From the NCBI GenBank assembly GCA_018817795.1, contig JAHITJ010000129.1:1-39957 (forward strand): a stretch of 39,957 nucleotides of DNA, written 5' to 3'. Below are positions 4,810-39,957 of this stretch, in pieces. Within the stretch, counting starts at the first letter, position 1; the number at the start of each line of letters is the position of its first letter. The translations under genes and the position numbers were made by a program. The notes below the pieces were generated by a model that saw nothing but the letters and a program-made list of their open reading frames with translations, was not told where the DNA came from and made no database searches. This stretch comes from Myxococcota bacterium. GTDB taxonomy: Bacteria; Myxococcota_A; Polyangia; HGW-17.

Positions 4810-6825
<2,016 letters not shown>

Positions 6826-7107
6826 CACCCACCCCGTTTGGCGCGCTGCGGACGTATGGTTCACGGAATCTCAATTTGGAAAAAAGTGGGACGGCAGGAG
6901 GAAAATCTTCTTGGCGCTCATCGACGGAATCGACAAAATCTTTACAGAAACGCAAAACACGGGCCTTTCGGCATCATGCAACACTGCGCCCACACAAAAA
7001 GCACCCTACTAAACCACTACAGTTTCTGCCGTCCCAGTTCTTGTTGTACCGCGGTCAAAGCCGGATGCAAGCGAGATTTTGGTTATTATCATCCTCCATC
7101 AAAACGC

Positions 7108-7623
7108 TCACCGCAGCAGAAACGACACCACCTGGCCGATGGCGGCCTCGACGGCTTCGTCATCGGTGCCCGCAAAACCGTGGGTGCCGGTACGACTCTT
7201 GATGCGGACCTCCCCCGAGGACTCCTCGCGATCCCGCTCGTAGACGAGCACGCGCACCGTGAGCTCGGCGCGGCCGGCGAAGGCGCCCTTCCACAGCCGG
7301 TCGCTCGGCTTCACGTGGCGGAAGTGTTCGATCTGCAGGATCACGACCACGTCCTGCGCGTAGGACGGCGGCAGCGCGCGAGCGGCCTGCACCTGCACTC
7401 CTGCCCGCATGAGCCGCCGGCCCACGCCCCAGATCAGGTCGTTGGCCGCCCGTCCGATGCCCGTCCGTGACGGAATCGGGTTATCCAGGACCAGCAGCAC
7501 CGACCGGCCCGACAGGATCGGCACAGACACCGGTCGAACCGTGCTCGCCTGCAACTGGGCGCACCCGGACAGGATGGACAACCCGACGAACAGACCCGCG
7601 AGAAGGACATTTTTCAGATGCAT
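7108..7623 (-). CDS. Lipoprotein of unknown function
   Basis: Lipobox LSILSGCAQLQ; good codon pattern; compact alpha/beta sequence ending in FLLR. Confidence 0.6.
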   Translation of the reverse strand: MHLKNVLLAGLFVGLSILSGCAQLQASTVRPVSVPILSGRSVLLVLDNPIPSRTGIGRAANDLIWGVGRRLMRAGVQVQAARALPPSYAQDVVVILQIEHFRHVKPSDRLWKGAFAGRAELTVRVLVYERDREESSGEVRIKSRTGTHGFAGTDDEAVEAAIGQVVSFLLR

Positions 7624-36754: not shown

Positions 36755-36820
36755 GATTTACAGTTTATCCATGATGGATTGAAAGTTGACTTACAGTTTA
36801 TCCATGCTAGATTGCAAATC
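36755..36820. repeat. Two-copy 33-bp imperfect direct repeat immediately upstream of the ATPase ATG
   Basis: gatttacagtttatccatgatggattgaaagtt / gacttacagtttatccatgctagattgcaaatc, 27 of 33 identical by eye, shared core TTACAGTTTATCCATG. Confidence 0.85.
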
Positions 36821-38008
36821 ATGGAAGCGTCCACCCTTCTGTTCAACCGCTGGCTGTCCATCGACCCCGCCAAGAGCGCCCTCCTGATCGGCCCTCGGCG
36901 CTGCGGCAAGACCACCCTCCTGCGCCAGCGCTTCCCCGAACATCGCTACGCCACCCTCGACGACCTGGACTTCCTGGACTGGGCCGTCCGGGATCCCAAG
37001 GGGTTCGTCTCCCACCTGGGTCCGCGCTGCATCATCGACGAGATCCAGCGGTCCCCGAAACTGACCATCGCGGTCAAGTACGCCATCGACAACGAGGGGG
37101 CGCACGTGCTGATGACGGGCTCGAGCTCCCTGGGCCTGCTCGACGCGGCCGCCGACTCGCTGGCGGGCCGCGTGCGCCTGTACGAGATGACGCCCGCCTG
37201 CTGGGGCGAGGACCGCGGGGCCCCGACCCATGGGATCTTCGGCGCGCTTCCGGATCCGCCGGCGCTGAAGGCGGCCGCCCGCGAGCTCGACGAGGTCCTC
37301 GCCTGCGGCCTGTTCCCCGAGGTGCTCACCACCGAAGGCCGCGAGGCCCGCCTGGCCCTCCTCAACGACTACCGCAACACGTACTTCATGAAGGATCTCC
37401 TGCAGATGGCGAACCTGGACAACCTCGAGGGCCTGATGGCGATCTATGTGAACGCCTGCCGCTCCCTGGGCTCCCACATCGAGGTCAGTCACTTCGCGCG
37501 GGAGGCGGGGCTCTCCTTCCCCACCGCCAAGAAATACCTGAACATGCTGGTCCAGTCCCAGCTCGCCTTCCGGCTCACGGGCTACCACTTCGGCCCGGCC
37601 AAGCGGATCATCAAGGCCGCCAAGACCTATTTCGCCGACAACGGCATCCCCGCGTCCTTCCGCGTCCCCCTCTCCGAGGGCCAGATCCTGGAGAACTTCG
37701 TCATCTCCGAGCTCGAGAAGCGCCGCCGCATGGGCCGGATCCGCGCCGACCAACTTTTTTATTACAAGACCGCCGCCGGCCGCGAGATCGACGTGGTCTT
37801 CGAGGCCGACGGCGTGGTCCATGCCATCGAGATCAAGTGCACCCGCGCCCCCGGCCGCGCCGACTGCGCCGCCCTACGCGACTTCGCCGCCGCGTTGGAG
37901 CTCGCCGGCCGCCCCGTCCGCTGCGTCCTTTTTCACCGCGGAGAGGACACCTCCACCCTCGACGGCGTCCGCCTCCTGCCTGTGGCCTCGCTCATGGGCG
38001 CTGGGTAA
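36821..38008 (+). CDS. AAA_14/DUF4143-family ATPase with PD-(D/E)XK-like C-terminal domain
   Basis: Walker A LIGPRRCGKTTLL, Walker B RCIIDEIQ, LMTGSSSLGL sensor; C-terminal FYYKTAAGREIDVVFEADGVVHAIEIKC (D...ExK). ATG at 36821 used instead of track 36779. Confidence 0.9.
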   Translation: MEASTLLFNRWLSIDPAKSALLIGPRRCGKTTLLRQRFPEHRYATLDDLDFLDWAVRDPKGFVSHLGPRCIIDEIQRSPKLTIAVKYAIDNEGAHVLMTGSSSLGLLDAAADSLAGRVRLYEMTPACWGEDRGAPTHGIFGALPDPPALKAAARELDEVLACGLFPEVLTTEGREARLALLNDYRNTYFMKDLLQMANLDNLEGLMAIYVNACRSLGSHIEVSHFAREAGLSFPTAKKYLNMLVQSQLAFRLTGYHFGPAKRIIKAAKTYFADNGIPASFRVPLSEGQILENFVISELEKRRRMGRIRADQLFYYKTAAGREIDVVFEADGVVHAIEIKCTRAPGRADCAALRDFAAALELAGRPVRCVLFHRGEDTSTLDGVRLLPVASLMGAG

Positions 38009-38039: not shown

Positions 38040-39431
38040 TCACGCCCCCGGAAGCACGTCATATTTCTGCTTCTCCGGAATCACCCCGCGCACGCCGCCC
38101 TTTGGATCCTGCATGTCGCCCTGGTATCGTGGGATCAGGTGAATGTGCATGTGACCCACCGACTGGCCGGCAGCAGTACCCACGTTCACGCCGATATTGA
38201 ATCCATTCGGGTGATATTCCCGCTCCAGAAGCAATTTTCCTTCAACAAGCAGGGCATCAAAGGACGCCCGTTCCTCAGGGTTCGCGTCGAACCACGAATC
38301 AAAATGCCGCTTCGGCACGATCAGCAGGTGCCCAGGTGAAACGGGGAACTGATCGAAGAACGCCTTCGCATGGGCGTTTTGAAAGACAATTTCCCGATGG
38401 CTGGTCTCGCAGAAGGGGCAATAGGAGACGGAGGGTTCCTGGGCGGAAACGATGATGGACGCTGTTTTCCCCGGAAGGGATTTCTCCGCTTCGCTGAATT
38501 TTCTTCGATGTTCCTCAAGGAAATTTTGATGAAAATCCAGACTGATCAGGGAATGCATCGGACGCAGAAACAACTGGTAATCCGCGTGTTGTTGGAAATT
38601 CCGGTTGACGAGACACTGACCTTTTTCGTCGAAGGTGATGGTCCAGGAATCAAATAGTTTATCGTGCAGGGGGCAAAGCAGCAGAGCGTTGTTGAGATCC
38701 ATTCGCTCATCATGGTTCGAGTCAGCCCAGCGCTTGATATGGGAAGCGACCAGCAACTTTTTGGAACTGATCCGGCACAAGACGCAGTGGTCATAATCTC
38801 GCAACAAATGTGTGCGAAACTTGCCCTGTCCAATTCGCCCCTTTACCAGCATTTCACGTTCGGTCGCTTTGACAGGAACCATGATTTCCTCGACCTTCGT
38901 GATTTCACGATCCAGGTTGAAATCATAGAAATCAACTGGCAAATCGAGAATGGGCATGGCTTCCTGAATGCGACGGATGGCTATCTCTTTGACTTTCTTG
39001 AAGACCTCCAACTGGAAGGCAGGGTCAATATCGATGCGGAAGAAAAACTGGTTTGATTCTCTGTCATAGTGGCCAAACTGATGATTCTTTCCCCAATGAC
39101 CCATAGGCATTTCAGCGATCAGTCGTTCGGTGTACCTGCGGGAAGGCTCGTCAAACTGAATTTTAAAATCTCTTTTGTCCTGATCCAAAAACTGGACCTC
39201 ACGGATTACATCCCAGTGGGTCAAAATGAAGTGAAAAAATGGCGCGGCTTCTTCTGGCTTGATTGGCTTCCACCAGTTGGAAGCATTTCGGCCCTTGCAT
39301 TCAAGCATCGCCAGCAGAAGGACCATTTTGTAAATTTTCTTGCATCCCGTATTGCGAATTGGACTGAATCGGGTCGTTTCAATCTCTTTCAACAAGTTAT
39401 TTACATCGTGAGGAAACTCATTCATACGCAT
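38040..39431 (-). CDS. HNH endonuclease (HNH_2-like) fused to C-terminal HIT-family domain
   Basis: HNH: HCVLCRISSKKLLVASHIKRWADSNHDERMDLNNALLLCPLHDKLFDSW; HIT: YCPFCETSHREIVFQNAHAKAFFDQFPVSPGHLLIVPKRHFDSW...FNIGVNVGTAAGQSVGHMHIHLIPRYQGD (HxHxHxx triad). ATG at 39431 (MRMNEFPHD) preferred over track 39542. Confidence 0.92.
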   Translation of the reverse strand: MRMNEFPHDVNNLLKEIETTRFSPIRNTGCKKIYKMVLLLAMLECKGRNASNWWKPIKPEEAAPFFHFILTHWDVIREVQFLDQDKRDFKIQFDEPSRRYTERLIAEMPMGHWGKNHQFGHYDRESNQFFFRIDIDPAFQLEVFKKVKEIAIRRIQEAMPILDLPVDFYDFNLDREITKVEEIMVPVKATEREMLVKGRIGQGKFRTHLLRDYDHCVLCRISSKKLLVASHIKRWADSNHDERMDLNNALLLCPLHDKLFDSWTITFDEKGQCLVNRNFQQHADYQLFLRPMHSLISLDFHQNFLEEHRRKFSEAEKSLPGKTASIIVSAQEPSVSYCPFCETSHREIVFQNAHAKAFFDQFPVSPGHLLIVPKRHFDSWFDANPEERASFDALLVEGKLLLEREYHPNGFNIGVNVGTAAGQSVGHMHIHLIPRYQGDMQDPKGGVRGVIPEKQKYDVLPGA

Positions 39432-39485: not shown

Positions 39486-39629
39486 ATGCCGGAGCCATCG
39501 CACGTTCTTACGGCCATGGGGTATTCGTCTGAAGATGCCCAAAGTTGCATTCGCTTCAGCATCGGGCGGTTCACGACCGAGGATGAAGTGGAGACGGCGT
39601 TGGCAACTTTGAGGACCGTACTTTTATAA
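39486..39629 (+). pseudogene. 3' remnant of a cysteine desulfurase (NifS/IscS family) gene
   Basis: Frame reads MPEPSHVLTAMGYSSEDAQSCIRFSIGRFTTEDEVETALATLRTVLL*, matching the conserved C-terminus (EPSHVL..MG......SIRFSLGRFTTEEE). No N-terminal part is found in the window. Upstream in-frame stop at 39471. Confidence 0.85.
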
Positions 39630-39687
39630 TAGCCAATCCAAGCAAATGGAAATTTCGATAATTGGTGGGGATTATTCTCCTCGTGGA

Positions 39688-39957
39688 GTTGATAGACTCT
39701 CTCCCGGAGTTTATGGGTTGATCCGTGGAGTTTATGAAACCACTTCGGTAGTTTATTTCTTAACCGTTGGAGTTAATGGGTTGGACTGCAAAGTTTATGA
39801 GCCGCTGAATCAGTTTATTTCTTAACCTTTGGGGTTTATAGGTTGGCCTGCGGAGTTTATAAACCGCTGAATCAGTTTATTTCTTAACCTTTGGGGTTTA
39901 TAGGTTGGCCTGCGGAGTTTATGAAACCGCTGTATCAGTTTATTTCTTAACCTTTGG
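39688..39957. repeat. Higher-order tandem repeat: ~21-bp GTTTAT subunits in 62-63-bp trimer units
   Basis: Units 39688-39750 (divergent), 39751-39812, 39813-39874, 39875-39937, partial 39938-39957; consensus GTTTATTTCTTAACCTTTGGG|GTTTATAGGTTGGCCTGCGGA|GTTTATAAACCGCTGAATCA; continues past window end. Confidence 0.95.

Follow-up and report, generated by a model that had tools for sequence, protein, structure and literature searches.

What a DNA nuclease gains from carrying a nucleotide hydrolase in the same chain is the question raised by an HNH-HIT fusion gene of a Myxococcota bacterium, found 0.5 kb from the end of contig JAHITJ010000129.1, which constitutes the whole window analysed here (39,957 nucleotides, ending at 39957). 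Nucleotide signals have a central place in several immune systems, and we know of no classical single-chain restriction enzyme with a nucleotide hydrolase. We lean, if slightly, towards a restriction-type nuclease that is equipped with a catalytic Fhit-like nucleotide-hydrolase module. This reading builds on what the computations find, namely the two domains, their intact active sites, the conservation of the histidine triad and the recurrent coupling of this type of HIT domain to nucleases; DNA cleavage, a role in defence, the target, the HIT substrate and the direction of control are what we infer from it.

Domain organization and active sites

A preliminary description of the locus, made from the sequence alone, had reported a single frame that joins an HNH_2-like nuclease core to a HIT domain with an intact triad and a CxxC pair, and each of these features is confirmed. 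The fusion is one open frame of 463 aa on the minus strand (39431 to 38040; Table 1), in which the HNH_2 (PF13391; residues 216-268, E 1e-10) and HIT (PF01230; residues 346-437, E 7e-20) families are matched at 41.7 and 71.9 bits, respectively, above the curated Pfam cut-offs used (21 and 21.5 bits). Since the closest copy of the gene (L003, described below) has AAG at the position of the first ATG, translation probably starts from the ATG at 39425.

Table 1. Features of the fusion gene and its surroundings, and loci compared with it. Positions without a locus name are those of the window.
Feature	Position	Strand	Remarks
HNH-HIT fusion gene	38040..39431	-	463 aa as annotated; likely start 39425, giving 461 aa
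N-terminal region, residues 3-180	38892..39425	-	Predicted helices then strands; relatives not detected; AF2 pLDDT mostly <60
HNH_2 nuclease domain, residues 187-318	38478..38873	-	Pfam; VcaM4I 6yex alignment; AF2; Foldseek 6yex E 5e-7
HIT domain, residues 335-463	38043..38429	-	Fhit-like, zinc site C338/C341/H376; Pfam; AF2; Foldseek; alignment
Histidine triad H427-x-H429-x-H431	38139..38153	-	40/40 relatives
AAA_14/DUF4143 ATPase	36779..38008	+	GC 67%; convergent with fusion gene; boundary of low-GC insert
47-aa remnant, C-terminus of IscS/NifS cysteine desulfurase	39486..39629	+	Divergent from, and upstream of, fusion gene
Tandem repeat array	39684..39957		62-bp unit with 21-bp substructure; contig ends inside array
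wHTH-HNH-HIT fusions	L121, L122, L123, L124, L126, L130, L131, L132, L318, L319
MutT-linked places	L033:5976-6362 and 6647-7591; L034; L267:539-2016; L111:6847-10134		Hymenobacter, two Priestia plasmids, L267

The HNH_2 domain aligns without gaps to the modification-dependent enzyme VcaM4I (PDB 6yex), such that its active-site residues H231, N248, D257 and D261 correspond to H224, N241, D250 and D254. In VcaM4I, the H224A, D250A and D254A variants are drastically impaired, and N241 is structural (PMC7897488). The same entry is the best PDB match of the HNH domain by sequence and the first PDB match of its AF2 model by Foldseek (E 5e-7), and PADLOC models of HNH restriction enzymes match residues 181-285 (E 1e-20 and 7e-14). 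Activity of the HNH domain as a DNase is very likely, cleavage of DNA being predicted from these likenesses. A further four residues (C216, C219, C253 and H256) form, judging from the sequence, a possible zinc site that is absent from VcaM4I.

The HIT domain carries the triad as H427-M-H429-I-H431-L-I and the CxxC pair as C338/C341. Its best Foldseek matches are a bacterial HIT protein (3imi), the Ap4A phosphorylase Rv2613c and Fhit, and the segment GQSVxHxHxHLIPRYxGD corresponds to that of Fhit and Rv2613c, not aprataxin. All three triad histidines are invariant in 40 of 40 aligned relatives. By contrast, the CxxC pair and H376 vary together, being both kept in 27 of these relatives, both lost in 11 and mixed in 2 (Fisher p 3e-8), a pattern which fits a zinc site that is real but dispensable beside an active site that is indispensable. 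The constancy of the triad amid variation at other sites makes catalysis by the HIT domain very likely.

AlphaFold models are reassuring for the two enzymatic domains and less so for the remainder of the chain. The HIT domain exceeds a pLDDT of 90 over most of its length; the HNH domain, poor in the full-length model where HIT is confident, is mostly at 80-90 when modelled in a separate run; and the N-terminal region stays mostly below 60. Degenerate active sites, which the preliminary description had named as evidence against its reading, are not seen: in alignments and models alike, the HNH and HIT sites look intact.

That description had also raised an aprataxin-like activity. In a reading of this kind, HNH would cut the DNA and HIT would take AMP off the 5'-adenylated ends, leaving the ligase unable to reseal them. 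The HIT fold, the intact triad and the zinc site are compatible with such end processing, fusion to a DNA nuclease would place HIT at DNA ends, and the recurrence of HIT with mechanistically different nucleases is what a generic end-processing role would produce. However, the post-triad segment and the structural matches are those of Fhit and Rv2613c, and deadenylation would merely reset the ligase, not block it, which makes end processing quite improbable. Aprataxin, moreover, depends on a C-terminal zinc finger to bind DNA; the fusion protein has none, its chain ending 32 residues past the triad and lacking any other cluster of Cys and His. Apart from the fold common to HIT proteins, nothing favours the aprataxin-like reading, and the protein is not considered an aprataxin.

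The N-terminal region is presumed, from its position, to be the domain that recognizes the DNA target. Residues 1-199 have no tblastn match among the plasmids searched, the region has no match among PDB sequences, and Foldseek with the AF2 model returns matches for the HNH part of the fusion protein and none for this region. Its identity with the winged-helix domain of the HNH_4 nucleases discussed below was considered and is unsupported, as profile comparison gives a probability of 1.4%, with only a YKxxLLL motif in common.

Composition, distribution and genomic setting

The gene is low in GC compared to its surroundings, as had been noted at the outset: 49.7% versus 67.1% for the adjoining ATPase gene and 62.9% for the window, with a GC3 of 60% versus 91%. 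Within the gene, the HNH half (46.8%) is lower than the HIT half (57.0%). The fusion is present in 2 of 8 genomes of the family, both of the same genus, and absent from the other 6; no full-length relative is detected outside the genus in 379 Myxococcota genomes, plasmids, phages or viral contigs. With a foreign composition and a restricted distribution, the gene was likely acquired horizontally, as first suggested.

The second copy resides in the metagenome-assembled genome (MAG) HGW-Deltaproteobacteria-22 (PHAZ01000016.1, L003) and encodes a protein with 99% identity to that of the window, followed downstream by the same ATPase and lipoprotein-like genes. The gene region is 97-100% identical between the two MAGs, and many flanking stretches are 83-96% identical. 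Nine codons differ between the two copies (4 synonymous, 5 non-synonymous), which is too few to show selection. A non-functional product of read-through between two adjacent genes would account for an exact architecture that is confined to one genus and for halves that differ in GC. Such an accident is highly improbable, as both active sites are intact, the frame is kept in two MAGs whose flanks share ~95% identity, and unrelated HNH-HIT fusions have the same domain order.

The visible neighbourhood of the fusion gene is not a defence island. Its neighbours encode the DUF4143 ATPase, an MFS transporter, an RCC1-repeat protein and a UDP-glucose dehydrogenase; no methylase, integrase or defence gene is present in the visible neighbourhood and no cognate methyltransferase is found among the downstream ORFs scanned, the upstream side being lost at the contig end in both cases. 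The 62-bp repeat in which the contig terminates is also seen at the end of another contig of the genome (C222:20676-20851), which carries the ATP synthase operon, and the sister MAG has a different 21-bp array at the matching position. The fusion gene may have inserted on its own amid housekeeping genes, the joining of contigs being a guess.

A HIT subfamily with recurrent nuclease partners

The HIT domain of the fusion protein belongs to a subfamily with a GGVR motif after the triad, which forms a clade apart from housekeeping HinT (SH-aLRT 96) and to most members of which it is 42-55% identical. In a whole-protein search of 379 Myxococcota genomes, relatives of 37-58% identity are found in 65 genomes, including that of the window. 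Forty of the Myxococcota loci were examined with flanks of up to 5 kb. These include (i) 19 loci in which the HIT domain lies within a protein that bears a PLD domain and an SF2 helicase, (ii) 13 loci in which HIT is a small gene that adjoins an HNH_4 nuclease of ~340-370 aa, HIT being upstream and on the same strand in 11 of the 13, and (iii) two further loci (L040 and L078) with a PLD protein or PLD-helicase nearby. For the gene pair at L004, PADLOC models identify an HNH nuclease (1e-84) and a type IV restriction enzyme (2e-71).

A restriction-type nuclease is encoded in frame or within 1.5 kb at 24 of 29 GGVR HIT loci and at none of 30 housekeeping HIT loci (best PF01230 hits of the same phylum, 1.5-kb flanks; p 5e-12), a comparison in which the Myxococcota loci are not fully independent but are spread over many genera. 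The remaining 5 of the 29 GGVR loci have no nuclease nearby. The alternative anticipated in the preliminary description, that homologs would prove to be housekeeping genes, is thus not borne out: the HIT relatives are tied to restriction-type nucleases and to mobile or defence loci. In the HIT tree, the domains of the PLD-helicases and of the HNH_4 pairs are interleaved inside clades, which indicates that partners have been exchanged.

Similar pairs occur on plasmids. The HIT gene precedes an adjacent HNH gene on a Polaromonas plasmid and overlaps it by 4 bp, in the same order, on an Aromatoleum plasmid. A Hymenobacter plasmid has the order HNH then HIT. Next to this pair are a gene for a restriction endonuclease and one for MutT, the latter succeeded by a protein of the PLD-helicase-DUF3427 type, which is how the type IV enzyme SauUSI is built (PMC3874153).

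Several side observations accompany these loci. A stand-alone HIT (L040:5681-9797) lies near PLD-helicase, DGQHR-like and DNA phosphorothioation-associated-methylase-like genes, as identified by eye. The HIT-PLD-helicase proteins of L069 (1458-5414, minus strand), L055, L059, L062, L067 and L074 carry at their C-terminus a Peptidase_S24 domain of the LexA type, in which a Ser/Lys dyad (GxSM...KR) is apparent, and are possibly coupled to self-cleavage or the DNA-damage response. Genes for MutT-like pyrophosphohydrolases are found next to restriction genes of the EVE-HNH or PLD-helicase type in just four places (Table 1), a possible parallel to the HIT partners. The 461-aa frame of L070 with a C-terminal HIT is not counted as another fusion, as the part upstream of HIT is a GC-rich frame of antisense-like character.

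Other fusions and the mobile-element alternative

The preliminary description had implied an isolated fusion, a view that does not hold, since unrelated HNH-HIT fusions exist and HIT/HNH gene pairs are common. Scans of viral contigs with the HIT alignment, in a collection biased towards mobile DNA, identify wHTH-HNH-HIT proteins of ~330 aa on ten prophage-type contigs (Table 1), with an HNH of the PF01844/HNH_5 kind and a HIT domain that has a GGVRGVIP..Y ending; their DNA has no match in E. coli genomes. On L131 (851-4006 and 4332-5387) the fusion adjoins a 1,051-aa Cas9-like gene with direct repeats, and on L130 it adjoins AIPR-like, two cytosine methylase and Vsr genes (names from sequence reading for both); the others are among recombinase and phage genes, that of L319 near a terminase gene. 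In the HIT tree, the window protein is placed apart from these fusions, with few columns and modest support. As the HIT domains group apart and the HNH domains are of different Pfam families, the order HNH-HIT is therefore concluded to have arisen at least twice.

These settings also bear on the alternative that the HNH domain is a homing-type or genome-packaging nuclease of a mobile element, with HIT as a passenger and no part in host defence. Consistent with this alternative, fusions are carried by prophages, one of them close to a terminase gene, and the window gene combines low GC with a repeat-flanked position and a broken-gene remnant nearby. A selfish or structural role is nevertheless rather unlikely, as the closest HNH structure is that of a modification-dependent restriction enzyme, the HNH_4 and PLD-helicase partners of HIT are widespread in Myxococcota genomes, and some fusions have a Cas9-like gene or methylase genes as neighbours.

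The GGVR subfamily also has stand-alone members in phages (viral contigs L113, L114, L117, L119 and L120), with neighbours, identified by eye, for ribonucleotide reductase, dCMP deaminase, nucleoside deoxyribosyltransferase and NAD synthesis, pointing to nucleotide chemistry. As phages carry members among nucleotide-metabolism genes, partnership with nucleases is not the sole association of the GGVR HIT subfamily; the phage proteins could be metabolic or counter-defence factors.

Proposed function

In the restriction-type reading favoured here, the N-terminal region, as the presumed target reader, would bring the HNH_2 domain to foreign or modified DNA, the VcaM4I-type HNH_2 domain would cut the DNA so reached, and the Fhit-like HIT domain would hydrolyse an NMP-X nucleotide (a dinucleoside polyphosphate, or a modified or adducted nucleotide). 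The GGVR HIT accompanies, either fused or within an operon, nucleases of at least four unrelated kinds (HNH_2, HNH_4, HNH and PLD-helicase), which makes a generic action probable, on a diffusible nucleotide that is produced or consumed in the course of infection. An allosteric switch specific to one nuclease is less likely, as the partner nucleases share no fold or energy source. HIT may instead eliminate a nucleotide by which the nuclease is held back, or dispose of nucleotides that would blunt the nuclease or endanger the host; within the restriction-type reading, gating and clean-up are about equally probable. The anti-phage or conflict role suggested in the preliminary description draws support from relatives at nuclease, mobile and defence loci and none from the gene's own visible neighbourhood at the contig end.

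A different use of the HIT domain would be as an off-switch, in which a nucleotide signal controls the nuclease or another partner and HIT destroys the signal, as proposed for ThsC of Thoeris II. A HIT gene is present in 2.4% of Thoeris systems, with an off-switch role suggested (PMC8565338), the HIT domain of the fusion protein matches the PADLOC ThsC model (E 4e-11), and TIR-HIT gene pairs occur on mycobacterial plasmids. We consider an off-switch unlikely, as no signal synthase (TIR or CD-NTase) is seen beside the window gene or the HNH and PLD partners examined, and the TIR-linked HIT falls outside the main clade of the tree.

To return to the restriction-type reading, a broader proposal, that the Fhit-like subfamily is a general accessory of prokaryotic restriction whose hydrolysed nucleotide controls or assists the cleavage of foreign DNA, is advanced tentatively, as possible more than probable. 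The main interest lies in the pattern itself, the repeated joining of a single HIT subfamily to restriction nucleases. If the proposal is true, this pattern would reveal an unrecognised nucleotide-dependent layer of restriction, and it poses the question of which nucleotide links infection or nucleotide pools to restriction. The fusion is compact, with both predicted activities in one chain of ~461 residues that is open to domain-by-domain expression and mutation.

Comparison with known systems

Of the characterized enzymes, VcaM4I (EVE-HNH, modification-dependent; PDB 6yex; PMC7897488) shares the HNH_2 domain and all four active-site positions with the window protein, but is without a HIT domain and without the additional CxxC...CxxH pattern of the window HNH. 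The window protein is not an EVE-HNH enzyme, as it lacks the EVE domain: no EVE/PUA modified-base reader is matched by Pfam, and the alignment to 6yex covers the HNH part only. Thoeris II ThsC (PMC8565338) is likewise a defence-associated HIT protein, matched through the same PADLOC model, but has TIR/ThsA rather than a nuclease as its partner. No TIR (ThsB) or ThsA gene is seen at the window locus, whose upstream side is lost where the contig stops; judged from the visible neighbours (DUF4143 ATPase, MFS and RCC1), the protein is not a Thoeris component. The Fhit and Rv2613c-type ApnA hydrolases and phosphorylases resemble the window HIT in fold and post-triad motif, but are stand-alone, housekeeping enzymes.

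Closer in kind are the nuclease-linked HIT proteins. The wHTH-HNH-HIT fusions share the HIT subfamily and the order of an N-terminal DNA-binding-like region, HNH and HIT with the window protein; they differ in a PF01844/HNH_5 rather than HNH_2 nuclease, in another, wHTH-like N-terminus and in HIT domains that group apart, and the window protein is thus not a member of this family. The HIT and HNH_4 pairs of Myxococcota, Polaromonas, Aromatoleum and Hymenobacter place the same HIT subfamily beside a nuclease with an HNH motif, but as two genes, with HNH_4 in place of HNH_2 and N-terminal domains that are not detectably related. The HIT-PLD-SF2 helicases (PADLOC mREase_IV models, SauUSI-like) likewise fuse this HIT subfamily to a nuclease of restriction type, but with HIT at the N-terminus and a PLD nuclease combined with an ATP-dependent helicase, several ending in Peptidase_S24 instead of DUF3427. 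Beyond ThsC, no paper on HNH-HIT or HIT-restriction coupling was found, in a literature coverage that is incomplete and gives no proof of novelty. The HNH_2-HIT architecture with the N-terminus of the window protein appears new, while HNH-HIT coupling, as a kind, is already present in many genomes.
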